Source: Sphingobacteriales bacterium (GTDB lineage Bacteria > Bacteroidota > Bacteroidia > AKYH767-A > OLB10). Taken from it: a stretch of DNA of 40,461 nucleotides. Positions within the stretch are counted from its first letter, which is position 1. Each line of letters starts with the position of its first letter. A program made the position numbers and the translations under genes. The stretch covers positions 1 to 40,461 of the forward strand of contig JAJTFW010000024.1 of the NCBI GenBank assembly GCA_021299095.1, given 5' to 3'. Positions 1,638-40,461 of the stretch are shown in pieces. The notes under the pieces are model-generated. The model was not told where the DNA came from, made no database searches, and saw nothing but the letters and a program-made list of their open reading frames with translations.

Positions 1638-4046
1638 CTACCCGATGACCCGTAGCTTGGCGAATTTTAGCAGCAGCTGTTTGCTGCCCTGTCCTTCGAA
1701 ATCGATGGTAGCCTTGATGTCTGGGGCGCGTCCTTCGAGTGCGATAACGGTTCCGTTTCCGAACCGCTGGTGTTCGACCCGCATTCCGGCTGCGATTTGT
1801 GAGGGGTCGGTCGCTTCAAAATCGGCGTTTGACTGTACGGGCCTGGCTTGCGTGATGCGGGTGAATCCTTTGGGTGGTGTTGTTCCCCCGCCAGGAGGCT
1901 TGGCGGCTGGAGTCCGGTTTGTTGCCTGTTGCGGTCTTGATTGAGACTGGTTTCCGTAACGTGATCCGAATTGACTTCCACCGCGCGATGGTGTTCGGGT
2001 TCGATCTCCCCATCCACCCCGTTCGTTTTCGTCATCAAATGTGGCCGCAGCCCGCTCCGGCTGTATGTCGAGGCATTCAGGGGCAATTTCATCCAGGAAG
2101 CGGCTCGGTTCGCAGTGAACAAGATTTCCCCAACGAAAACGTGTGGTAGCCATGCTGAGCGTGAGTTTTTGCTCGGCCCTGGTGATGGCGACATAAAATA
2201 ACCGACGTTCTTCTTCGAGCTCGGTCCTGGAATGTACGCTCAATTGCGATGGGAAAAGGTTCTCTTCCATTCCCACAATGTAAACATGCTTGAACTCGAG
2301 CCCTTTTGCACTGTGTACTGTCATCAACGATACCTTGTCACCATCGCCATCTGCATCGTTATCGGCATCAGTGAGTAAAGCGATATCCTGGATGTACAGA
2401 TCCAGTGTACGCAAAGGCGGAAGAGCCATTTCGCCCGAGGGTGCCTCGAGCGGGATCTTGCCGTTCTCGCTGAATTCCCGAATACCATTCAAAAGTTCTT
2501 GCACGTTTTCGTAGTGGCTCACCCCTTCAGGTGTACGGTCGTTGTGCAGTTCGGTCAGCAAGCCCGATGCAGTTGCAATGTGGCTTGCCAATTCATACGC
2601 ACTGTGGTTGGGAAGCATAATGTTCCAGCTGCGGATCATGACGGCGAATTCAGCCACCTTGTCGCGCAAACCGGAGTTGATGCCCCCCTTGAATTCGTGG
2701 ATGTTGTTGATGACTTCCCAAACGGATACTCCGGTCTCGCCGGCCTCTACCACGATGCGGTCCAGTGTAGTCCGGCCAATTCCCCGGGCCGGGTAGTTGA
2801 TGATTCGTTTGAGAGCCTCTTCGTCACCGGGATTAATAGCCAGTCTGAAATAGCCGATGAGGTCTTTAATCTCTTTTCGGTTGTAAAAAGAAACACCTCC
2901 AAAAACGCGGTAGGGGATATTCATCCTACGAAGCGCCTCTTCCATCGAGCGGCTTTGTGCATTCGTACGGTAGAGTATGGCGAAATCGCGCGGCTTCAGG
3001 CGACGGTTCATCTGCTCGTCGAAGATGCTTTGTGCAACCTGCCTGCCTTCTTCGTTGTCGCTAAGTGCACGGATCAGCCGAATACGTTCTCCGTGGTGAT
3101 TGTCGGTCCAGACGTCCTTTTGGAGCTGGTTCTTGTTGTGGGTGATGACGGAGTTGGCCGCCTCGACAATGGTTTTGGTGGATCGGTAGTTCTGCTCCAG
3201 CTTGAATGTGGCCAGCTCGGGGTAGTCCTTTTCGAAATTCAGGATGTTTTGGATGCTCGCTCCGCGAAATGCATAGATGCTCTGCGCATCATCGCCCACC
3301 ACGCAGATGTTGCGGTGCATTGCCGTGAGCTTGCGAACAATCACATACTGGGCATAATTGGTATCCTGAAACTCATCAACCATGAGGTAGCGGAATTTCG
3401 CCTGGTACTTGTACAGCACATCGGGATGTTCGTTGAATAACCTCCAGGTGTTGTACAGGATATCATCGAAATCCATTGCGCCGGCCTTAAAACAGCGCTT
3501 GCTGTAGAGTTCGAAGAGCATGCCCATTTTCGGTTTGCCACTCGAGCGGTCATCACCTGTCAACTCGCTGCTTTCCTGGTATTCAAGCCAGTTGTAGAGG
3601 TTGTTTTTCGCGCTGGAAATCCGATTCAAAACGGCTGAGGGCTTATACACCTTGTCGTCGAGACCCTGTTCCTTCAGGATGTCGCGGATGAGGCCCTTGC
3701 TATCGTCGGTATCGTAAATGGTGAAGTTCTGTTGGTAATTGAGTTTGTCGGCTTCGGCACGAAGTATTCGGGCAAAAACGGAGTGGAATGTACCCATCCA
3801 CAGGTTTCGCGCTTCGTTGCCGGCAACACGCATGATACGCTCTTTCATTTCCCGCGCAGCCTTGTTGGTGAAGGTCAGTGCGAGGATGCTAAAGGGGTCG
3901 TTGCCCTGTTCAATAAGGTGGGCGATACGGAAAGTGAGGACACGGGTTTTTCCCGATCCTGCACCTGCGATGATCATGACAGGGCCATCGGTGTGTACAG
4001 CCGCCTGGCGCTGCACTTCATTCAATTGGTCGAGGTACGTGTTCAT
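1638..4046 (-). CDS. uvrD: UvrD/PcrA-type superfamily 1 DNA helicase
   Basis: ATP-dependent 3'-5' helicase of repair and replication restart, cytoplasmic, 802 residues. Helicase motifs follow in order: Walker A GAGSGKT at residues 28-34, the TFTNKAAREMKERI motif, Walker B VDEFQDTN, motif III VGDDAQSIYAFRGA, the LEQNYRST motif, and VSLMTVHSAKGLEF with FYVAITRAEQKL in the C-terminal half. A Gly/Gln/Arg-rich linker precedes a small Tudor-like tail (MRVEHQRFGNGTV...) ending KFAKLRVIG, usual for PcrA/UvrD. The start is ATG 4046; an adjacent GTG at 4049 is the alternative. Only about 7 bases separate the promoter-like TACATTTG box from this ATG, so the message may be leaderless. It is divergent from the lysyl-oxidase gene. 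PcrA and UvrD cannot be told apart here. Confidence 0.96.
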   Translation of the reverse strand: MNTYLDQLNEVQRQAAVHTDGPVMIIAGAGSGKTRVLTFRIAHLIEQGNDPFSILALTFTNKAAREMKERIMRVAGNEARNLWMGTFHSVFARILRAEADKLNYQQNFTIYDTDDSKGLIRDILKEQGLDDKVYKPSAVLNRISSAKNNLYNWLEYQESSELTGDDRSSGKPKMGMLFELYSKRCFKAGAMDFDDILYNTWRLFNEHPDVLYKYQAKFRYLMVDEFQDTNYAQYVIVRKLTAMHRNICVVGDDAQSIYAFRGASIQNILNFEKDYPELATFKLEQNYRSTKTIVEAANSVITHNKNQLQKDVWTDNHHGERIRLIRALSDNEEGRQVAQSIFDEQMNRRLKPRDFAILYRTNAQSRSMEEALRRMNIPYRVFGGVSFYNRKEIKDLIGYFRLAINPGDEEALKRIINYPARGIGRTTLDRIVVEAGETGVSVWEVINNIHEFKGGINSGLRDKVAEFAVMIRSWNIMLPNHSAYELASHIATASGLLTELHNDRTPEGVSHYENVQELLNGIREFSENGKIPLEAPSGEMALPPLRTLDLYIQDIALLTDADNDADGDGDKVSLMTVHSAKGLEFKHVYIVGMEENLFPSQLSVHSRTELEEERRLFYVAITRAEQKLTLSMATTRFRWGNLVHCEPSRFLDEIAPECLDIQPERAAATFDDENERGGWGDRTRTPSRGGSQFGSRYGNQSQSRPQQATNRTPAAKPPGGGTTPPKGFTRITQARPVQSNADFEATDPSQIAAGMRVEHQRFGNGTVIALEGRAPDIKATIDFEGQGSKQLLLKFAKLRVIG

Positions 4047-4053
4047 CACTCTG

Positions 4054-4229: not shown

Positions 4230-6605
4230 ATGCGTAAACTTCTGTTGATTTTGGCCCTTTCACTGGCCGGTCTGCTGAATGTCAGTGCCCAATGTCCATC
4301 CGGATTTTCCGAATTGATTGTTTTTATTCAGCCCGATGATTACCCAAATGAGACATCATGGACATTAAGAGATATCAATGGCAATTTGATTGGCAGTGGA
4401 GGATATGTCGGTGATACGCTCTGTGTGGCCGATTCAACCTGTCTGATCTTCGAAATCAAAGACAGTTACGGTGATGGCATCTGCTGCGGCTTTGGAACCG
4501 GTTTTTACAATGTAACACTCAATGGTGTCCTGCAGGCGACAGGTGGCCAGTTTACCTACAATGAAGTTTCTTACTTGGGATGCCCTCAGGGTAGTCATTG
4601 CAGCGATAGTTTTACCGCACTGGAGGACTCTGCATTCTCCTGTGTTGGCCCCAGCACCTGGTATGAGTTTGTTCCCGATAGTACCGGGACCTACACGGTA
4701 TCCACGTGTTTTCCTTCGAATACATGTGATACCCGCATCTGGATTTACGACCACTGCAACAACCTGGTATGGAATTCAACCAACATCGGTACGATCTTTT
4801 ATAACAACAATGATTCGACATGTGCTCCTAATTCCAGCATCGAAGCCGGTCTTCAGGCCGGGCAAACCTATTACATCCGCATCGGCGGCGATTCAACATG
4901 TTTCGGGCAGTCTATAGCCTGGAATCTGGTTTATGCCGGACCAATGAGCGGTTGTATGGACCCCGCTGCATGCAATTACAATCCCCTGGCAATCATTCCG
5001 GGTGGTACATGCATTTACCCTGGCGATCCCTTGTGTACGAGTGGTCCCGACCTGGTTGTGGATCAGGTAGAGCTTCAGACTACTCTGAGCCTAGGTACTG
5101 TGAACGGAAACGATGCCTGCTTGATCGGTGAGGGATGTCTTACAGGCTATGGGCAGCGTCAGGTTGTCAATTTTAGTACACGTATCGCGAACATCGGCGA
5201 TGCCGATTACTATATCGGTCAGCCCCAGACCGGAAATCAATTCGTGTTTGATCAGTGTCACGGCCACTGGCACTACGCCGGTTACGCTCGTTACGATTTG
5301 TATGATTCACTCGGTGTTCCTCTGCAGGCCGGTTTCAAGAATGGTTTTTGTGTAATGGATCTGCAGTGTTTTGGCGGTCAGGCAAAATACGGGTGTAGCA
5401 ACATGGGTATTTCCGCCTCTTGTGCCGATATATACGGAGCGGGTTTGGCCTGTCAGTGGATCGATATCACGAATGTTCCTGCCGGTCGCTACACCTTGGT
5501 GGTGCGTGTAAACTGGGACGAAACCCCCGATAAGAATGGCCGGGTGGAACAACGGTTCGACAACAATGTGGCCTCCGTTTGCCTTGATATTACCCGTAAT
5601 GCTCAAAATGTTCCTGCATACACGTTGCTGAGCAATTGTCCTCCGCTAGTCGACTGCCTGGGAGATACCTTCGGTCTTGCAACCTATGATTGTATGGGCG
5701 TTTGCAATGGTCCACGTGTGCGTGGTGATATCGATATCGATGCCGATCGTGATAATGCGGATGTACTTCAGTATATGCAGGAGATCGTGGGTCAGCAGCC
5801 TTCTATGTCTTGCAAGGATGTGAATGGCGATGGAATTTTGACCGTAACGGACGCCGACTTGGTCAATGCCTGTGTGCGGTTTACATCGGGTGTACACGCG
5901 CATCCCGGAGGAACCCAGAACACCCACCGCCACTGCGAATTTCCTTACAACATCATCAATATCAACGATACGGTTGTGCTTGGTCTTGCCCAGGTAAACA
6001 CCACCGCGCAATGGCTTGATGTGACGCTGCGGAATCGCAACGGCAATCTGATGGCGGTTGATTTCGGATTAACCGGTGTGCAAATCGATTCGGTGGTCAG
6101 TCTGATTGCCGGGTTTCAGCCCGTTATTCGGTGGGATGCCACTACCGGGCGGATTGCCCTGCTCGACACCAGTGGAGCGAGCCTTGTGAAGAATATGATT
6201 CCCGTTGCCTTTCTTAGGGTGTATTACCAAAACCTTACCTCCAATACCATCTGTTTGAGCAACGCCTCTTTTGTTGCTGTGAATGGAAACGATGAGGAGA
6301 CCATCACCCAGGTTCAGAATGGTTGTGTCACGGTTACAGGCATCAATATCCAGTATCAGAGTGATTTCATCAGCGTATTCCCGAACCCCACGCCTGGTCT
6401 ATTTAGGATTACGACAGGGATGCTCAATGGCATGGATGCCCAAGTCAGCATTTGTGATGCTATGGGACGTGAGTTGTTTCGTGTGAACACCACATTCGGG
6501 ACCGAAGGAGTATTGGCCGACCTGACTGCCTATCCGACGGGAATTTATCTTGTTCGTGTACATACCGCACAACTTGATTTAACCAATCGAATTGTGCGTT
6601 GGTGA
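4230..6605 (+). CDS. Secreted lysyl-oxidase-domain protein with T9SS type A sorting tail
   Basis: 791 residues. Residues 1-21 form a signal peptide cut near VSAQ. A Cys-rich N-terminal region (about 22-265) of beta-sandwich type follows, with the Asp/Gly-rich KDSYGDGICCGFGTGFYNV. A lysyl-oxidase domain spans about 275-455. It has the copper motif CHGHWH (His344, His346, His348), Lys370 in AGFKNGFCVMD, and Tyr402 in SCADIYGAGLACQWIDIT, matching the copper histidines and the Lys/Tyr pair that form the LTQ cofactor in animal LOX (Lys320 and Tyr355 in human). Next is a dockerin-like Ca-binding segment (DIDADRDNADV and DVNGDGILTVTDAD, about 501-545), a cohesin-like beta domain (about 575-700), and a T9SS tail with FPNPTPGLFRI and GIYLVRV. 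Predicted role: extracellular copper amine oxidase acting on lysine side chains or amines. The domain call is strong; the substrate is unknown. Confidence 0.88.
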   Translation: MRKLLLILALSLAGLLNVSAQCPSGFSELIVFIQPDDYPNETSWTLRDINGNLIGSGGYVGDTLCVADSTCLIFEIKDSYGDGICCGFGTGFYNVTLNGVLQATGGQFTYNEVSYLGCPQGSHCSDSFTALEDSAFSCVGPSTWYEFVPDSTGTYTVSTCFPSNTCDTRIWIYDHCNNLVWNSTNIGTIFYNNNDSTCAPNSSIEAGLQAGQTYYIRIGGDSTCFGQSIAWNLVYAGPMSGCMDPAACNYNPLAIIPGGTCIYPGDPLCTSGPDLVVDQVELQTTLSLGTVNGNDACLIGEGCLTGYGQRQVVNFSTRIANIGDADYYIGQPQTGNQFVFDQCHGHWHYAGYARYDLYDSLGVPLQAGFKNGFCVMDLQCFGGQAKYGCSNMGISASCADIYGAGLACQWIDITNVPAGRYTLVVRVNWDETPDKNGRVEQRFDNNVASVCLDITRNAQNVPAYTLLSNCPPLVDCLGDTFGLATYDCMGVCNGPRVRGDIDIDADRDNADVLQYMQEIVGQQPSMSCKDVNGDGILTVTDADLVNACVRFTSGVHAHPGGTQNTHRHCEFPYNIININDTVVLGLAQVNTTAQWLDVTLRNRNGNLMAVDFGLTGVQIDSVVSLIAGFQPVIRWDATTGRIALLDTSGASLVKNMIPVAFLRVYYQNLTSNTICLSNASFVAVNGNDEETITQVQNGCVTVTGINIQYQSDFISVFPNPTPGLFRITTGMLNGMDAQVSICDAMGRELFRVNTTFGTEGVLADLTAYPTGIYLVRVHTAQLDLTNRIVRW

Positions 6606-6672: not shown

Positions 6673-8349
6673 TCAGCTGAGCCGCTCGCGGATATCGAGT
6701 CGGTGTTTTCTAGCTGTATCCTGTGCGATATCGTATCCGGCATCCATGTGTCTGATTACACCCATGGCCGGATCGTTGTGGAGAACGCGTTTCAAGCGAC
6801 GGGCGGCATCATCCGTTCCGTCTGCAACAATCACCATTCCTGAATGAATGGAGTAACCCATACCAACTCCACCACCATGGTGCAGGCTGACCCACGAGGC
6901 ACCACCTGCGGTGTTGATCAATGCGTTCAGGATTGGCCAGTCAGCAACAGCATCGGATCCGTCCAGCATGGCCTCCGTTTCCCGGTTCGGGCTCGCTACG
7001 GATCCTGTATCCAGGTGGTCTCTTCCAATCACAATTGGGGCTTTAACCTTGCCGCTGCGCACCAATTCATTGAAGAGTAGTCCGGCTTTTTCACGATCAC
7101 CCTGCCCGATCCAGCAGATACGCGCAGGTAAACCTTGGAAAGCGATGCGCTCCTGAGCCATGCGGATCCAACGGTGCAACCCCTCATCTTCGGGGAACAA
7201 TTGAAGTATGGCCTCATCTGTAACCCGAATGTCTTCGGGATCTCCGCTGAGTGCAGCCCAGCGGAAAGGGCCTTTTCCTTCGCAGAACAAGGGGCGGATA
7301 TAGGCCGGCACGAATCCAGGAAAATCAAATGCATTTTTAACACCGCGTTCCAGTGCTCTGCCACGCAGGTTGTTGCCGTAATCGAAGGTGATGGCTCCTT
7401 TTTGCTGCAATTCCAGCATCAGGCGTACATGTTCCGCCATTGAGTCGTACGACATTTCAATGTATCGGTCGGGGTTCTGTTCGCGCAACACATTGGCTTC
7501 TTCTACGCTCAATCCTTCCGGTATATAACCGATCAAAGGATCGTGGGCTGAGGTCTGGTCGGTGAGCACGTCAGGAGTGATGCCGCGATCCAACAACCGA
7601 CGAAGCAATTGTACAGCGGTGCAGATCACACCAATGGATTTGTTTTCTCCTTTGCGTTTGAACTCCAGCGCCAGGTCGATGGCTTTGTCTATGTCGCGTT
7701 CAACATAATCGAGGTAACGGGTTTCGATGCGTTTTTGTGCACGCCATTCTTCCACCTCGGCCGCAAGGCAAACACCCTCCGCCATGGTGACGGCGAGCGG
7801 CTGCGCTCCGCCCATACCTCCGAGTCCTGCAGTGACGCTCAGTGTACCCTTAAGAGTCCCGCCGAAATGCTTTCGCGCAACCGCGTTGAAAGTTTCATAG
7901 GTCCCCTGCACAATGCCTTGTGATCCGATGTAAATCCAAGAGCCAGCAGTCATCTGTCCATACATCATCAGCCCTTTCTTCTCCAACTCATCAAATACTT
8001 CCCAGGTAGCCCACTTAGGCACCAGTTGTGAGTTACTGAGAATAACGCGCGGTGCATCCTTGTGGGATGGAAGTATGGCAACAGGTTTTCCGCTTTGAAT
8101 CAACAGGGTTTCATCATCGTTGAGGTCTTTCAGTGCCTTTACAATCAAGTGGAAGGATTCCACATTTCGTGCTGCCTTTCCACGTCCACCATAAACGATG
8201 AGGTCTTCTGGACGTTCGGCAACCTCAGGGTCGAGGTTGTTATGAAGCATACGCAAGGCGGCTTCCTGAACCCAGCCTTTGCAGTTCAGGGTATTACCGG
8301 TCGGTGTTTTGGTCTTGTTAAGATCCAGTTTTTGGGCGGAAATTTCCAT
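6673..8349 (-). CDS. hutU: Urocanate hydratase (urocanase)
   Basis: Converts urocanate to imidazolonepropionate, second step of histidine degradation, using tightly bound NAD+ as electrophile; cytoplasmic. The 558-residue length is standard. Visible features are [10 protein letters not shown] near residue 53, the NAD-binding GLGGMGGAQ at 175-183, [16 protein letters not shown] near 264, and the conserved active-site Cys412 in [18 protein letters not shown]. The C-terminus carries [16 protein letters not shown] and HMDAGYDIA. No other hut gene (hutH, hutI, hutG) is nearby, so the pathway would have to be completed elsewhere in the genome. The DUF5522 gene lies 52 bases upstream on the same strand and may be co-transcribed. 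Confidence 0.97.
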
Positions 8350-12356: not shown

Positions 12357-15300
12357 TTAGCGAATCAGACTGAACGTGCCGGTATATTGATAAGGCTTGT
12401 CCTTCAGGCTCACGATATCGATTCGGTAGGTGTAAATACCGATTGGAGAAAGTGAGCCATCAGCATCAGTGCCGTCCCAGGGACGTAAGAAATCCTTGCT
12501 TTGATAAACGATCTGCCCCCACCGGTTGTAAATGACCATGTCGAAAGACTTCACCCGGATGAACGGGGTGCCGTCGAAGAACAAATCGTTTCGACCGTCG
12601 TTGTTGGGGCTGAAAGCGCTCGGGATAAAGAAGGGAGCTACTTCGATATCGAAGGTGTATTCGTCTTTACAGTCCACACCATTGAATGCGATGAGCTTGA
12701 CAGTTCGCGTTCCGATTTTATCAAAAAGGTGTATTGGATTCACCTCTTCAGAACTTTCACCTTCGCCAAAGTTCCATTTGTACCGTGTAGCATTGGTCGA
12801 GGTATTGGTGAAGCTTACCTCTGAATTGAAAATACTGATGATCCGTGCCGATGCATCGAAGCCGGCATCTGGTGCCGGGGGCAGGATTACGCTGATGATA
12901 GCAGAATCTACGTCTGTGCAGCCGTAAGGACTGGTAACGGTCAATGAGGTAACATAGTCGCCGGGAGATGGATATCCGTGAAGGGGCGACATCACGGATG
13001 ATGTGCTGCCGTCACCGAATTTCCAGTCATATGTGGAGGAGGGTTCGCAAATACTCTGGTTCAGAAATTCGACGCTTATTTGATCGCAGCGAGTTTCCTG
13101 CACGGGTGTGTATATCGCCTGCGGAATCGGATAAGCCTGGAATAAAACGGATTCCGATGCAATACATCCTTCTGGGCTGGTTACCGTAACGGAGTAGTTT
13201 CCTGTTTGTGTTACTTGTATGCTCGTACCCGTATTTCCGTTTGACCAATTGTAGGTTCCTTGTCCTGCAACGGCCTGTAGTTGACCCGTCAAGCCTTCGC
13301 ATACCCCGGCTGGTCCGGTGATGCTGCTGTTGGGTAAGGGGAAAAGCTGTACTAAGAATTGAGTTTGTCCGGTGCATCCGTTGTTGTCAGTAACAACTAC
13401 GCTGTAGGTTCCGCCCAGATTCACGCCGACAGAGGCAGATGAACCTCCTGAGCTCCACTGGTATCCTGCATATCCGTTGCCCGCGGTCAGAATACTGGTC
13501 TCTCCATCGCATATGCGGTCGTCGCCGCTGATCTGGGGTTGTGGAGCAGCAGTTACAGTCACACTGGCAAGTGATGTGGCGGTACATCCATTGTTGTCAG
13601 TAACGGTCAGGCTATACGAAACCGGGACCGTTGAGCTTTGACTAGGCGCGGTTGATCCGTTCGACCACAGGAATGTACTTCCTGCTGGGCCAACAGCAGT
13701 AGCGACTGCTGTTTGTCCATCACAAATGTCAAGGTCGCCAGCGATGGAAGCCGATGGGAGTGGCCAGGATAGGATGTTGGCGTTTGCATTCCCGCTACAG
13801 CCGTTTGCTGCAGTTACTGTAACCGCATATGTTCCTCCAATGCTGATTTGATTAGCGGTTGAAGAGGCGCCATTCGACCACAAGGTTGTAGCGTATCCGG
13901 GTTGTACGTTGAGAGTTGCCGTGCTGCCGTTACAGAAACCCGCAGGTCCGCTGATTTGCGGCTGGGTAAACGGTAGAACAACCAATTGTACGGAACTTGA
14001 ATTCGAACATCCGTTGTTATCAGTGACAGTTAACACATAATTTCCACTCGTTCCGATCGTGATTGCCGATTGCGTTGATCCGTTCGACCAATTGTACGAA
14101 CTGAAAACGCCACTGGAGCTCAATGTGGTTGTGGAACCATCGCAAATGCTGAGCGTACCCGCAATCGAAACCGCTGGCAATGGATTTACTACAACCGACT
14201 GGCTCGCATTTCCCGAGCAACCGTTGTTATCGGTCACTGTAACAGTGTACGTCCCGCTTGTATTGACGGAGATCGATGGCGATATGGATCCGTTAGACCA
14301 CGCAACGGTATTTCCTGCAGGAACAGATAGGTTTACGCTGCTGCCTTGGCAGATGGAAGTAGGACCGGAGGCCGTGATTCCAGGTACGGGATTTGGGAAT
14401 ACCTGCACGGAGACTGTGTCCGATACGGCAGTGCAATTGCTGCCTTGTCCGTACTGAACCGTACAGAAATAATTATTCGTGGTTTGTACGGTTATGCTTT
14501 GGGTGGTTGCTCCATTTGACCACAGATACGAATTGCCCTGACTTACCGTAAGCGTTACATCATCGCCGGGACACAGGTTTGTGGGGCCACTGGCGGTAAT
14601 CACCGGTTGTTCCGTCAGGAACTCGACATAAATCAACGCAGAGAATGCGAAGCACAAGGCTCCGTTGTTCAATGAAACGTAATAAATGCCTGGCTGACTT
14701 ACCCAAATTGAGTCGGTCGTTTCGCCTGTTGACCAAAACGGAGGTCGGCAGGTATTGATGTGGAGAGGAATCGAGTCGCCCGGGCAGATATACAAGGTGT
14801 CACCAACATTGGCTACTTGGTTATTGACGGTCAACACGGGGATTTGTCCAACGGACTGGAAAGAGTTGCTTTCCAGAAAAACCCCGGAATCGTAATTGCC
14901 ATCGCAGAAATCCTGTACGGCCAGTTTGATGTGATAGGTTTCACATGGACATACTTCACGAGCCGCGGTGAGCACGGTGGTCATACCATCGTACTGCACG
15001 GAACTACTGCCGTGGTTGTCGCGGAAATAGGCGCAATTCAAACACGGACCAGTGGGGGTAGTCAGAGCAGCGGATTGCCCGTTGTTGACGGTGTTGATTG
15101 AAATCGGAACGGTACTCCCGGGAATCTTGGCGATGTTTTCTGTGCCGGTGATTCCCGGACCACTGATGAAAAAACCGAAATAATCGTTGCAACCTGTATT
15201 CACAAAATCACTGTATTCCTCAGATGCCCATACATACCGAAAGCGAACGGAATCCGTAGCAACGGTGAAATCAAATTCCAACACAGAGGCATCGAATCCT

Positions 15301-15656
15301 CCACCTCCTGTCGGATTCAGGGCGTTCAAATCGGGATCGCCCGAAACACCATTGCTGGCTCCGGCTCCTGTTGAATTGTTCGGACCGATCGCACTGGCCA
15401 CACTTCCGGAAGTCAGCAATACGCCACTCGATAGGCCGACATTGCAAGGCCCGAGACAGTTGAATGTCCCTCGGGCAATTGTACTTCCGGAAAACGTGAT
15501 ATTGCTGGCATTTACCCCTGCACCCAGCAAAGTGGTTTGTACTAGACTGGTTGCTGTTGGTGCAGTGCTAACGGTAAGCTGCGCATAGGCACCATTTACC
15601 CTTAGAAGCAGAAGGGTAGTGCAAAGCAAGAAGAAATGTGGGCGCAGTGGCTTCAA
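12357..15656 (-). CDS. Large T9SS surface protein: choice-of-anchor L, tandem Ig-like repeats, PKD, CHU_C tail
   Basis: 1099 residues. A signal peptide (1-25) is followed by a choice-of-anchor L domain (about 27-270) with WASEEYSDFVNTGCNDYFGF. About eight Ig-like units of 70 residues follow (about 280-850), each built around a GxxxICxG start, a YxWSNG core and a GTYxVTVTDNNGC end. Two PKD-type domains lie at about 855-1005 (FGDGSTSSVMSPLH and FGEGESSEEVNPIH). The C-terminus is the gliding-motility-associated CHU_C domain (type B T9SS signal) with PSAFSPNNDGRNDLF, YNRWGQIVYQS and GIYTYRIDI. Predicted cell-surface adhesin or secreted structural protein. A TATATTTG promoter box lies 20 bases upstream. 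Ligand unknown. Confidence 0.9.
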   Translation of the reverse strand: MKPLRPHFFLLCTTLLLLRVNGAYAQLTVSTAPTATSLVQTTLLGAGVNASNITFSGSTIARGTFNCLGPCNVGLSSGVLLTSGSVASAIGPNNSTGAGASNGVSGDPDLNALNPTGGGGFDASVLEFDFTVATDSVRFRYVWASEEYSDFVNTGCNDYFGFFISGPGITGTENIAKIPGSTVPISINTVNNGQSAALTTPTGPCLNCAYFRDNHGSSSVQYDGMTTVLTAAREVCPCETYHIKLAVQDFCDGNYDSGVFLESNSFQSVGQIPVLTVNNQVANVGDTLYICPGDSIPLHINTCRPPFWSTGETTDSIWVSQPGIYYVSLNNGALCFAFSALIYVEFLTEQPVITASGPTNLCPGDDVTLTVSQGNSYLWSNGATTQSITVQTTNNYFCTVQYGQGSNCTAVSDTVSVQVFPNPVPGITASGPTSICQGSSVNLSVPAGNTVAWSNGSISPSISVNTSGTYTVTVTDNNGCSGNASQSVVVNPLPAVSIAGTLSICDGSTTTLSSSGVFSSYNWSNGSTQSAITIGTSGNYVLTVTDNNGCSNSSSVQLVVLPFTQPQISGPAGFCNGSTATLNVQPGYATTLWSNGASSTANQISIGGTYAVTVTAANGCSGNANANILSWPLPSASIAGDLDICDGQTAVATAVGPAGSTFLWSNGSTAPSQSSTVPVSYSLTVTDNNGCTATSLASVTVTAAPQPQISGDDRICDGETSILTAGNGYAGYQWSSGGSSASVGVNLGGTYSVVVTDNNGCTGQTQFLVQLFPLPNSSITGPAGVCEGLTGQLQAVAGQGTYNWSNGNTGTSIQVTQTGNYSVTVTSPEGCIASESVLFQAYPIPQAIYTPVQETRCDQISVEFLNQSICEPSSTYDWKFGDGSTSSVMSPLHGYPSPGDYVTSLTVTSPYGCTDVDSAIISVILPPAPDAGFDASARIISIFNSEVSFTNTSTNATRYKWNFGEGESSEEVNPIHLFDKIGTRTVKLIAFNGVDCKDEYTFDIEVAPFFIPSAFSPNNDGRNDLFFDGTPFIRVKSFDMVIYNRWGQIVYQSKDFLRPWDGTDADGSLSPIGIYTYRIDIVSLKDKPYQYTGTFSLIR
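13116..14600 (-). repeat. tandem ~70-residue Ig-like repeats inside the adhesin gene
   Basis: Seven clear consecutive units (residues about 353-847) share a Cys-containing start (ICxG), WSNG and TVTDNNGC. At DNA level short stretches such as ccgttgttatcagt recur once per unit, but units have diverged in between. An eighth, weaker unit lies at residues 280-350. Confidence 0.85.
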
Positions 15657-16115: not shown

Positions 16116-17705
<1,590 letters not shown>

Positions 17706-28709: not shown

Positions 28710-31058
28710 TCAGTGTCTTACGATCAGTTTTTTGACCGTTTCACCACAGCGGATCAGGTAAACCCCAGCACTCCAGCTTTGTGTATCGAAACTCTGGTAG
28801 GGCAGAAATCTGCGTCGCTCAATAAGTTGTCCCATGGCATCGAGTACATCCAGATCACGTTCCTGTCTATCGCGGATTTGTACCTGAACCAAATCGTTGG
28901 CCGGATTGGGATATATGCTAAGTTGAGCCGGAATACTGAATTCCTCTTCCAATAGGGACGAGGTGTTGTTGTTGGCCGAAAAGGTGTGTGGCTGAATGAC
29001 GAAGTATCCTGTCCCATTCGGGTTACGAGCCAATCCGAGGTTAGCGGTTTGTTGTCCCCAGGTTAGCGAGTCAACAATTGCCGATGCAGGATCAAGGAGG
29101 TAAAGCACTTCTCCTGTGCCCGATAATTTGAAGTTTGCATGGAAAGGTCCTTGGCTGCTGTCTTCGTCTGCCCAGATGATCAGGTAATCGTCAGGTTGAA
29201 TGATTGTTCCTGCAGGAATCGGCCATTTGTCGAGATTCAGGGTGTTGTCGGTCAAGTAGTAACCACTGACATCCACCGGTACGGATGATTTGTTGTATAA
29301 CTCAATCCAGTCGTCATACTCGCCAAAGTTGTCGGCAACCGTGCTGATATTGGTAGCCATAATTTCATTGATAACCACCTCTGAGGCGGCAGAGCTCTGC
29401 GGTGCTACGGTATAAACAAACACGTTGTGTTCGGCACCTTCCGGTAGGTAACGAACACTTTTAGCCGTGTTTGCCGCCACTGCAGCAACGTAAAATCGAA
29501 CCGGTGTTCCTGCAGCATAAGCTGGAATCAGTGCAGCATAAATTCCATCTGATGCCAGGCTGTCGTCATGTAGACCATCATCGTACATCGGAGTTTTCAG
29601 GAATTTTCCAGCGAGCCCGGGGCAAAAATAGAGCTGCACATTATCGATGCCGTTTGCGGAGCTGACTGTAGCTCGGATGTTGACCAATTGCTGATCGTTC
29701 GGTTGTGCAAATTCCACGCCTCCGGCGTAATAAGAGGCTTGTGAAATCACTGGCGCAATTGCCTGTATTTCGGTATTGCTGTTCAGGAAATTCTTTCGGG
29801 TTGTTACAAAGTTCTTTAGTACCTGCACCTCGTTCGACCATTGGGTGTATGTATACATTTTCTTGGGGTCATTCTGGACGACGGTGTCAACCAGGCTACG
29901 GAAAGCATTGAAGGTTGAATTGGTGAGCGCAGTGTCGAATTCTTCGGTAATTATTGTCCGCATGTGTGCCAGATAGCGCTGCCGGAGGGAGGGTACATTC
30001 AGGAGTTTGTTCAGCAGAGGATAGTTCACATTCGTAGCATTGTAGAACACGCCCCATGTGGTGGCGGGGGTAGGCTCCAAGGCTGAGTTTCCATCGTATT
30101 CATGCGGTACCATTCTTCCGCTTACTTCGTCGAAGTATACATAGTAATCCATTTTGCCTTTGAACACATAGCTGTCATCATCGGTCCAGGCAAGTTCCGA
30201 GGCCAGATACCACAAGGTGCGGTCCAGATCGAGGTAGTTGGCGAGTGTATCTTCAAGCGCCACAATCGGAGTGTTATTCAATTTGTCGCAAAGCCTCACA
30301 AGGTATGACCAGGGTTGTACAAAACTGTTGGATTCTTTCAGCGTGTAATAGGTCTTGTATATGGTTGTGTCTGGAGACAAATAATTCAGTCCTGCTGTGC
30401 CATCTCCCCATCCGCCGCCGCCGCCACCGGATCCGGCAGGTCGGTCGGCCCTCCACCAGATTCCATCATTGCTGAAGTACCATTCTTCCAGAAAGTCTTT
30501 GTTGAGTTGCTGCACGTTCGAATACAACCCCCAGTTACCGCCGTTCAAGTATAATTTCACAAAGCTGGTTCTTGCGGTCGGACAGTGCTTCTTGATCATG
30601 CTTGTGTAGAACACTTCGCGCATCATCGAAGGGTCTTGCGCAGCATTGTTCAGTTTGAGTGTGCTGTAACCGTTGAAATCAGCTCCTGGTCTCCAAAAAT
30701 CAAGTTCAATTTTGAAGGATTTTTTCTGGGATGTACCGGTGTTGTATGAGGTGTTTCCGCGAAAACGGACTCCGGCACTGTCGAAGCTCATGCCATCAAT
30801 CGTGACTGTGCCTGGTAAATACGTTTTTGAGGCGTAGTTGTTGGTTAACTGGGTCCAGAACGTCGGTGAAGCAAAGGTGATATCGACTCTACGAATCAGC
30901 GATTGATCGTAGTAGCCTGTGTTCGGTAAATCGCCGGTCAGTAGCATGCGTCCGTCTGGACTGAAATGCATGTGATCCGGTAATTGCTGGGCTAAGGACG
31001 TACCAGTAATGAAATAAGCCGTGGTGAATACCACCAGGTAACGCAAGAACTGATGCAT
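28710..31058 (-). CDS. CotH kinase-family protein with lamin-tail domain and T9SS tail
   Basis: 782 residues. Signal peptide 1-24 (TSLAQQ). The CotH kinase-like domain (about 50-430) has GVRFRGNTSYNTG (96-108), KKSFKIELDF (112-121), NNAAQDPSMMREVFYTSMI, WTDDDSYVFKGKMDYYVYFD (291-310) and the acidic HEYDGNS (319-325); CotH proteins of spores are atypical protein kinases. A Gly-rich loop (about 208-217) interrupts it. An Ig-like region follows, then a lamin-tail (LTD) domain (about 560-690), SEVVINEIMATN...WIELYNKS, and a T9SS tail with YPNPANDLVQV and GVYLIR. Predicted extracellular kinase-like protein. It converges with the VTC operon. Confidence 0.85.
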   Translation of the reverse strand: MHQFLRYLVVFTTAYFITGTSLAQQLPDHMHFSPDGRMLLTGDLPNTGYYDQSLIRRVDITFASPTFWTQLTNNYASKTYLPGTVTIDGMSFDSAGVRFRGNTSYNTGTSQKKSFKIELDFWRPGADFNGYSTLKLNNAAQDPSMMREVFYTSMIKKHCPTARTSFVKLYLNGGNWGLYSNVQQLNKDFLEEWYFSNDGIWWRADRPAGSGGGGGGWGDGTAGLNYLSPDTTIYKTYYTLKESNSFVQPWSYLVRLCDKLNNTPIVALEDTLANYLDLDRTLWYLASELAWTDDDSYVFKGKMDYYVYFDEVSGRMVPHEYDGNSALEPTPATTWGVFYNATNVNYPLLNKLLNVPSLRQRYLAHMRTIITEEFDTALTNSTFNAFRSLVDTVVQNDPKKMYTYTQWSNEVQVLKNFVTTRKNFLNSNTEIQAIAPVISQASYYAGGVEFAQPNDQQLVNIRATVSSANGIDNVQLYFCPGLAGKFLKTPMYDDGLHDDSLASDGIYAALIPAYAAGTPVRFYVAAVAANTAKSVRYLPEGAEHNVFVYTVAPQSSAASEVVINEIMATNISTVADNFGEYDDWIELYNKSSVPVDVSGYYLTDNTLNLDKWPIPAGTIIQPDDYLIIWADEDSSQGPFHANFKLSGTGEVLYLLDPASAIVDSLTWGQQTANLGLARNPNGTGYFVIQPHTFSANNNTSSLLEEEFSIPAQLSIYPNPANDLVQVQIRDRQERDLDVLDAMGQLIERRRFLPYQSFDTQSWSAGVYLIRCGETVKKLIVRH

Positions 31059-38681: not shown

Positions 38682-40461
38682 ATGGGCAAACAACTACCTA
38701 CTGCATTAACGACTGATTTGCGGGTCAACACGCATCGAGTTGCAGGCGTAATCTCACGATCAAGAGGTGTTTTATTGGTCACCCTGGGCGCGGTGGCCTT
38801 GTGTGTTATTCTGGCTCTAATTAATAACAAGGCGGCCGATGTAAACTCATATGCCACGGGATTTTCCGGGGGCAATCCTTCGCCTGCAAGTGCTATTACA
38901 GGCAATCAGATCATGCCAGCCAACTCTTTTTACATCAACATGGGAGTTGTGCCGCAGACGCTTTCGAATGGATTAAAACCCTACGGTTTGTTATATGATT
39001 TGATGACCAACTATCAGGTACCGATTTACTGGGCCATCCGACCAAACAAACCAACGAAGGATACGACCGATTATACGCTGGCCGGGACCATTTACCGCAC
39101 CAGCATTTTTGTGGTTCCCGGAACTTACATCACGCCCGATGTTCAGGCGGTCATTGCATCTTGGCAGGCCCAGGGTGTTCAGGGCGCCTATTTGGCCACC
39201 ACGCCCACTGTTTACGTGTATGAGACCCTTACTGGTTTCCCTAAAGTCATGATCGACAACCTCACGGGGAATTCGGCCATCATCGCTGGATATTTTACGA
39301 ACGCAGGCATACCGGCTACGGCCTACCGAATTGGAACTCCAGCTCAACTTACGCCTTGCGATGATTTGTGGGCCAATCCTCATGCAGACCCTACCTGGGC
39401 AGATCACAGCCCCTTGTACAACTGGATGCTGGATAACAATGGCAACATATTCTCCCAGTGCCATGCTGTATCCGTTATCGAAAACCTGAAAAACCCTGCG
39501 AATCCCGCTCAAACCATGAATTACCTCACAACTGCTGGGGTGAAGTGCTTCAGCGGAGGTCAAAGCAATGGGGGAGCCGCTTGCGGGGTCAATGAAACCC
39601 ACACGAACACTGTAGGCCCTGGTCCATATTTGTATCGTACAGCAATTGATCCCGTTCTTCAGTTTTTTGGCATCGCACACACGGCTTGCCAGAACGGTTC
39701 CGAACAGTATTTCATTCCGCTATCCACTTCCCAATGGCGAAGCACGAGCCGAAAGGTCATCACTGCTAACGTGAACAGCACTATCACTAGTCAAGAGGGG
39801 GTATTTTCTGTGTATGGTCCAGCGTACGGTAATACTGGTCTAGGGTATGTCATGTATATGGGCGGTCACAATTTTGCAGGTAGCGGATCAGCACAAGAGC
39901 AAATTGCTGCTCAACGTGCATTTTTCAATTTTTGTCTTCTTGTTGGCAGAAAGAAACAATTCAACCTGGTCAGCACCAGTATCAATGGCACCTATACCGC
40001 TGGTACACCTGCAAATCTTTCCATCAATGTAACGGGGGGGACACCTCCTTACCAATACAGTTGGGCCAGTACGCTTGCAGGAACATTCAGTCCTGCGAGT
40101 ACAGCTTCTACCACGTTCACGCCTGCTCAGATGTCTACCAATCAAACTGGTACCATCACAGTAACGGTTACTGATGCCTGCAACCGTGTAATTACTCAGA
40201 TTATAAATGCTACCTCTATCGGAACTACCTTGCCGGTCAGGTTGCTGGATTTTGAAGCCGTACGCAATGCCGATCGTGTGGTGTTGAATTGGTCAACCGC
40301 TACAGAGGTGAACAACGACTATTTCACCATCAGCCGCTCCGGCGATGGACACCTGTTTACGCCGGTTGCCGTTCTGGATGGAGCCGGCAATAGCACCCAG
40401 ATCCGTGAGTACTCGGTTGCGGATTTACAAGCCCCTCAGTCGGATGTGTACTACCGGTTGT
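38682..40461 (+). CDS. Large surface protein, uncharacterised N-terminal domain, T9SS-associated FN3-like region (cut by window)
   Basis: The frame is open from ATG 38682 to the window edge, 593 residues and more. Instead of a cleavable signal peptide, residues 28-47 form one hydrophobic helix (LLVTLGAVALCVILALI) after a basic N-terminus. A domain with no recognised family (about 75-425) has GLLYDLMTNYQVPIYWAIRP, a Cys in IFSQCHAVSVIENL and YVMYMGGHNFAGSG; the last two are loosely like an amidotransferase-type fold, which is only a guess. An Ig-like repeat (about 430-515) and the LPVRLLDF...VVLNWSTATEVNNDYFTISRS segment (517-553) typical of T9SS-secreted proteins follow. A sorting tail probably lies beyond the window. 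Confidence 0.75.
   Translation, partial: MGKQLPTALTTDLRVNTHRVAGVISRSRGVLLVTLGAVALCVILALINNKAADVNSYATGFSGGNPSPASAITGNQIMPANSFYINMGVVPQTLSNGLKPYGLLYDLMTNYQVPIYWAIRPNKPTKDTTDYTLAGTIYRTSIFVVPGTYITPDVQAVIASWQAQGVQGAYLATTPTVYVYETLTGFPKVMIDNLTGNSAIIAGYFTNAGIPATAYRIGTPAQLTPCDDLWANPHADPTWADHSPLYNWMLDNNGNIFSQCHAVSVIENLKNPANPAQTMNYLTTAGVKCFSGGQSNGGAACGVNETHTNTVGPGPYLYRTAIDPVLQFFGIAHTACQNGSEQYFIPLSTSQWRSTSRKVITANVNSTITSQEGVFSVYGPAYGNTGLGYVMYMGGHNFAGSGSAQEQIAAQRAFFNFCLLVGRKKQFNLVSTSINGTYTAGTPANLSINVTGGTPPYQYSWASTLAGTFSPASTASTTFTPAQMSTNQTGTITVTVTDACNRVITQIINATSIGTTLPVRLLDFEAVRNADRVVLNWSTATEVNNDYFTISRSGDGHLFTPVAVLDGAGNSTQIREYSVADLQAPQSDVYYRL

Follow-up and report, generated by a model that had tools for sequence, protein, structure and literature searches.

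A predicted type IX-secreted lysyl oxidase with a conserved multi-domain layout in Bacteroidota

The window analysed here, a 40,461-nucleotide stretch from a Sphingobacteriales genome, carries a gene (4230-6605, plus strand) that probably makes a secreted, cell-surface lysyl oxidase (LOX). The gene is a single ATG-to-stop frame of 791 amino acids with no breaks. It holds an intact, conserved and probably active copper-dependent lysyl oxidase domain, and its product is most likely a surface-attached amine oxidase that would act on lysines of extracellular protein. The enzyme family is known; its conserved multi-domain form, exported by the type IX secretion system (T9SS), is apparently undescribed. 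The features of the gene are as follows.

4230-6605, plus strand: whole gene, predicted T9SS-exported lysyl oxidase (open reading frame with Pfam and NCBIfam matches; layout common to 57 aligned full-length members)
4230-4289, plus strand: putative signal peptide, residues 1-20 (...NVSA/QCPSG; sequence, cleavage site placed by eye; predicted helix 2-15)
4290-4580, plus strand: N-terminal beta module with conserved cysteines and a DSYGDGI motif, residues 21-117 (strands in the model; no Pfam family)
4581-4934, plus strand: PPC or collagen-binding-like jelly roll, residues 118-235 (fold match to the ColG collagen-binding domain 5iku)
4950-5021, plus strand: cysteine linker repeat GCMDPAACNYNPLA...CIYP, residues 241-264 (invariant C242, C248 and C261)
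5034-5669, plus strand: lysyl oxidase catalytic domain, residues 269-480 (PF01186; LOXL2 fold and profile matches)
5256-5273, plus strand: CHGHWH copper site, C343/H344/H346/H348 (invariant in 101 of 101 domains; aligned to CHRHYH of LOXL2)
5337-5339, plus strand: Lys370, predicted lysine of the lysyl tyrosylquinone (LTQ) cofactor (101 of 101; aligned to the lysine of LOXL2 GHKASFC)
5433-5435, plus strand: Tyr402, predicted LTQ tyrosine (101 of 101; aligned to the tyrosine of LOXL2 DMYRHDIDCQW)
5688-5894, plus strand: dockerin-like module, residues 487-555 (helices 509-520 and 539-552; two calcium-loop-like motifs)
5955-6344, plus strand: cohesin-fold domain, residues 576-705 (fold match to cohesins)
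6366-6602, plus strand: T9SS type A C-terminal sorting domain, residues 713-791 (PF18962, TIGR04183 and fold)

The gene stands alone between a divergent uvrD/pcrA-type gene (1638-4049, minus strand) and a convergent urocanase gene (6673-8349, minus strand), so that its neighbours give no clue to the substrate. An operon around it was rejected, as both flanking genes lie in the opposite orientation. Urocanase and the genes that follow it also adjoin LOX in a locus of the same genus (L043), and the arrangement is therefore plain synteny. Elsewhere in the window, frame 12357-15656 (minus strand) encodes a PKD/CHU_C T9SS cargo protein of 1099 amino acids to which no role was assigned, and a 593-amino-acid frame (38682-40460, plus strand) runs past the window end and gave no Pfam matches at 1e-4.

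The initial annotation had claimed a complete LOX domain, with CHGHWH, Lys370 and Tyr402 at the copper and cofactor positions of the animal enzyme, and had called for a search with the lysyl-oxidase profile. That search matched PF01186 to residues 307-455 (profile positions 49-195 of 204; E = 3.6e-29; 102.3 bits, cut-off 20.4). Human LOXL2 (5ze3) was the only strong PDB match by sequence (2e-20), and the match improved to 5.2e-36 with a profile built from 44 sequences. For the fold we used an AlphaFold2 model made from a 57-sequence alignment (mean pLDDT 85.5, pTM 0.64) and compared its parts with VIA-align 2. Residues 269-480 had LOXL2 (5ze3_A) as their top structural match, with a Z score of 22.0 and an rmsd of 3.6 Å over 198 residues at 29% identity. 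A plain Foldseek run of the full model also gave many loose matches to multi-domain beta proteins, complement C3/C5 among them, and these were disregarded.

In both sequence alignments H344, H346, H348, K370 and Y402 fall in the copper and LTQ columns of LOXL2 (K653 and Y689 for the cofactor pair), as the initial annotation had placed them and with its numbering (CHGHWH, 343-348) correct. The surrounding motifs correspond, GFKNGFC to GHKASFC around the lysine and DIYGAGLACQW to DMYRHDIDCQW around the tyrosine. Eight cysteines of the domain (297, 303, 343, 374, 380, 389, 398 and 408) align directly with LOXL2; C451 and C470, invariant among the 57 members, lie outside the residue-by-residue alignment, and animal LOX has ten conserved cysteines. 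The precursor of LOXL2 crystallised with K653 and Y689 16.6 Å apart, and a mature model requires no more than a local rearrangement of the peptide that carries the lysine (PMC9659206). The Lys-Tyr distance in a precursor model is thus not diagnostic, and the refutation by a large distance that the initial annotation had put forward does not hold.

Further modules lie around the catalytic domain. The N-terminus looks like a typical signal peptide by eye (MRKLLLILALSLAGLLNVSA). The N-terminal module that follows has C22, C65, C71, D78, D82 and G83 invariant in the 57 aligned members. For residues 118-235 of the AlphaFold2 model the best match is the collagen-binding domain of ColG, 5iku (Z 12.5, rmsd 2.5 over 104 residues, 11% identity); the SIDT1 and PliG jelly rolls follow with Z scores of about 9-10. 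Residues 576-705 match cohesin 6kgf_C (Z 12.3, rmsd 2.8 over 124 residues) and many further cohesins (Z 10-12, about 120 residues). The module between LOX and cohesin includes two calcium-loop-like motifs, DIDADRDNADV and DVNGDGILTVTDADL. Thus, of the dockerin- and cohesin-like context described in the initial annotation, the cohesin part is borne out by the fold and the dockerin part is weaker: Pfam recognises Dockerin_1 in 15 of the 57 members, at 1.7e-4 in the best of them, and not in the window protein itself. Together with the N-terminal module, the PPC-like and cohesin parts probably serve to bring the catalytic domain up to other proteins of the surface or matrix.

The T9SS tail that had also been proposed is confirmed by two profiles above their cut-offs, Por_Secre_tail (PF18962; residues 716-788, E = 1.2e-8, 35.6 bits against 27) and the NCBIfam type A tail TIGR04183 (34.4 bits against 23). 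The fold of residues 713-791 agrees, with matches to the NucA tail (8glk_D, Z 11.6) and the mirolase tail (Z 11.3). The genome encodes SprA (SprA_N, 3.8e-175) and has about 108 sorting-tail matches, so a T9SS is present. T9SS cargo is generally exported in the folded state, which makes copper loading and disulfide formation in the periplasm possible. Lysine is scarce in the genome's T9SS cargo, with a mean of 1.65% (37 ORFs, taken from the window and loci L126-L145) against 4.4% in other nearby ORFs. Arginine is also lower in the same 37 ORFs. A T9SS-tailed CotH-LTD gene in the window (28710-31058, minus strand) has 3.6% lysine, unusually rich for this genome's T9SS cargo. The LOX protein has 6 lysines beyond the signal peptide (0.78%); avoidance of lysine as self-protection by LOX was rejected as unspecific, as other T9SS cargo of the genome is poor in it too.

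From these features we infer the following course. The signal peptide would carry the pre-protein across the inner membrane; the protein would fold in the periplasm, with disulfides, its C-terminal sorting domain would be recognised, and the outer-membrane channel of the T9SS would move it out. Copper at H344, H346 and H348 would drive self-oxidation of Tyr402, which Lys370 would join to give lysyl tyrosylquinone. The mature enzyme would then oxidise primary amines, most likely lysines of extracellular protein, to aldehydes with release of hydrogen peroxide and ammonia, and these aldehydes could cross-link protein. The proposed chemistry is that of the LOX family, taken over from membership in it. 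The modelled accessory domains suggest that the enzyme attaches to further proteins of the surface or matrix.

Relatives of the catalytic domain were found in 177 stretches of genome contigs, and the best 80 of these 177 loci, which were kept, come nearly all from Bacteroidota metagenome-assembled genomes. Loci found in the family and order to which the window belongs, and one from a sample of the phylum, were added to these and gave a set of 101 full-length LOX domains, here termed class A. Every one of these 101 Bacteroidota domains keeps H344, H346, H348, K370 and Y402, and likewise cysteines 269, 297, 303, 343, 374, 389, 398, 408 and 451. Clustering at 90% identity reduced the set to 65 clusters with a mean pairwise identity of 56%. 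Across them 44 of 195 columns are invariant, and the chance that all five preselected columns would be among these is about 5e-4, which points to purifying selection on the putative active site. The layout with the same parts occurs in full length in 57 aligned relatives spread through Bacteroidota, and since conserved cysteines run in them from the N-terminal module over the PPC-like part and the linker to the dockerin-like part, the architecture is conserved as a whole. Several longer LOX-containing frames of about 1480 to 2000 amino acids (L046:379-6378, L058:3538-9528, L048, L051, L055 and L057) have the class A domain in other architectures.

PF01186 was matched in 31 of 42 genomes of the window's order, whereas only 4 of 395 genomes drawn from the phylum had a match. 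This concentration in mostly uncultured lineages may explain the little attention given to the family. Carriage on plasmids was rejected: the one LOX that tblastn returned from plasmids is distant (28% identity, 26% of the query covered) and lies on a megaplasmid of Gemmatirosa, and the other matches, in Vibrio and Persicobacter, are to the N-terminal module. Searching the literature for lysyl oxidase together with type IX secretion yielded one unrelated review, with subscription papers covered in part. The domain arrangement to which the initial annotation had drawn attention therefore appears to lack a published account, but it is no one-off, as the same architecture recurs across Bacteroidota.

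In some related genomes other genes accompany LOX. In 13 related loci (L068, L076, L080, L086, L094, L096, L104, L105, L106, L109, L115, L119 and L121), the majority of them in metagenome bins of Flavobacteriales or Bacteroidetes, LOX is followed immediately downstream, in the same orientation, by a CotH kinase-LTD-CHU_C gene. This gene encodes a secreted kinase of the CotH type that also has a lamin-tail domain and a CHU_C T9SS domain. The open frames are separated by -19 to +26 bp, and the two genes are probably co-transcribed; between these loci the LOX domains share 69-98% identity. CotH is found in 19 of 19 genomes of the order that have a class A LOX and in 11 of 23 that lack it (Fisher p = 1.3e-4, with descent ignored), an association that weakens when genera are counted by hand (8/8 versus 8/15). 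T9SS abundance by itself is no obvious explanation of this co-occurrence, since almost every one of the 42 genomes is rich in sorting tails. We know of no CotH targets in Bacteroidota.

These partners favour, tentatively, a role in matrix maturation, in which LOX together with the secreted CotH-type kinase would cross-link a self-made extracellular protein network of adhesins or biofilm matrix. We regard this as a fair way short of probable. The CotH-LTD gene of the window lies about 22 kb from LOX, and because the genome's own T9SS cargo is lysine-poor, its surface proteins would offer few targets.

Matrix cross-linking and amine scavenging rank as about equally likely roles. As a scavenger, which we consider possible but doubtful, the enzyme would deaminate free amines, polyamines or peptide lysines for ammonia; it might otherwise release hydrogen peroxide against neighbours or inactivate cationic peptides. 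The LOX of the archaeon Haloterrigena turkmenica (HTU-LOX) has a relaxed specificity that suits such a role, oxidising many small amines, among them taurine, glycine, aminoglycosides and polymyxin (PMC6452851), and cross-linking thus need not be the role of a LOX. Peptide nutrition would likewise fit the Peptidase_S46 gene that 17 related loci (e.g. L081:2571-4910) have upstream of LOX and in the same orientation, often with a gap of about 240 bp between the open frames. However, only some members of the family show this linkage, the window not among them, and conserved PPC-like and cohesin modules with a sorting tail would be unusual for a soluble nutrient scavenger.

The initial annotation had suggested cross-linking as a possible outcome and the matrix of prey or host as a possible target; both stay conjectural here. 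Attack on, or attachment to, foreign protein such as prey, algal or animal matrix would be steered by the collagen-binding-like jelly roll, for which the ColG domain is the best match. We hold this to be improbable: the PPC fold is widespread, the identity to ColG is low, the SIDT1 and PliG jelly rolls score not far below it, and for the closest relatives, among the best 80 of 177 loci, which come from metagenome bins, no host is given.

The same genome encodes a second LOX, of another class (class B), on contig C45 at 16889-17095 (L002; L132:930-4307, minus strand; 1126 amino acids), so that this group has two T9SS LOX families. In this protein an N-terminal LOX domain is followed by a P-domain, PKD-like repeats and a T9SS sorting tail. 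The HGHMH motif, the lysine and the tyrosine are present, with fewer of the LOX cysteines. The PF01186 match is limited to the C-terminal half of the profile (128-196), and the model matches LOXL2 with a Z score of 14.6 over 172 residues, the next match scoring 6.8. All 23 class B members have the Lys and the Tyr, and 20 have HxHxH. The other three (L018, L019 and L040) have lost the copper histidines and kept the cofactor Lys and Tyr, and on this pattern are possibly dead or re-purposed LOX domains. That the window protein is itself a catalytically dead, structural LOX-like domain, as these three might suggest, is very improbable, as it and all 101 class A domains keep every catalytic residue.

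Lysyl oxidases predate collagen-based matrices, the animal counterpart of this enzyme type cross-links collagen, and the one archaeal LOX that has been studied is cryptic in its host. For the surface-attached lysyl oxidase proposed here, intact residues, a defined export route and a fixed partner gene in one clade offer a concrete route to the role of a bacterial LOX. The family allows covalent lysine cross-linking of a bacterial surface matrix to be probed, and is a possible source of new amine oxidases. A broader picture, speculative and rather unlikely as it stands, is that in many uncultured Bacteroidota a T9SS-exported LOX, anchored by cohesin and jelly-roll modules, and a CotH-type kinase, likewise exported by the T9SS, would modify and covalently cross-link a self-made protein matrix on the surface in an animal-like manner.

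Human LOXL2 (PDB 5ZE3) shares with the window protein the catalytic fold, HxHxH after a cysteine, the LTQ lysine and tyrosine and at least eight cysteines, but has SRCR domains where the window protein has PPC-like, dockerin-like and cohesin parts and a T9SS tail. Animal LOX has an additional histidine ahead of the motif (H289 in the human enzyme), which the window protein lacks, as do other bacterial LOX according to the survey of Grau-Bove et al. 2015 (PMC4448552). That survey reports LOX genes in Bacteroidetes, with predicted activity, in keeping with the remark in the initial annotation that bacterial LOX had been noted before. These genes share phylum and catalytic residues with the window gene. 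All but three of the prokaryotic LOX described there are LOX-only proteins, with or without a signal peptide or transmembrane region, and the T9SS tail and cohesin architecture of the window protein go unmentioned in the part accessible (PMC4448552). HTU-LOX is, like the window gene, a prokaryotic LOX, and its copper amine oxidase activity is proven: refolded with copper, it oxidises lysine peptides and is sensitive to 3-aminopropionitrile (PMC6452851). Catalysis is therefore possible for a prokaryotic domain that has these residues. HTU-LOX differs in being archaeal, without T9SS and of relaxed amine specificity (PMC6452851), whereas the window protein is T9SS-tailed. Non-cellulosomal cohesin and dockerin proteins share the cohesin fold (576-705) and the dockerin-like element (487-555), but in the window protein, unlike in these, both lie on one polypeptide beside LOX. 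Finally, the C-terminal sorting domain is shared with T9SS type A cargo such as NucA and mirolase, and the cargo enzyme here is a lysyl oxidase.
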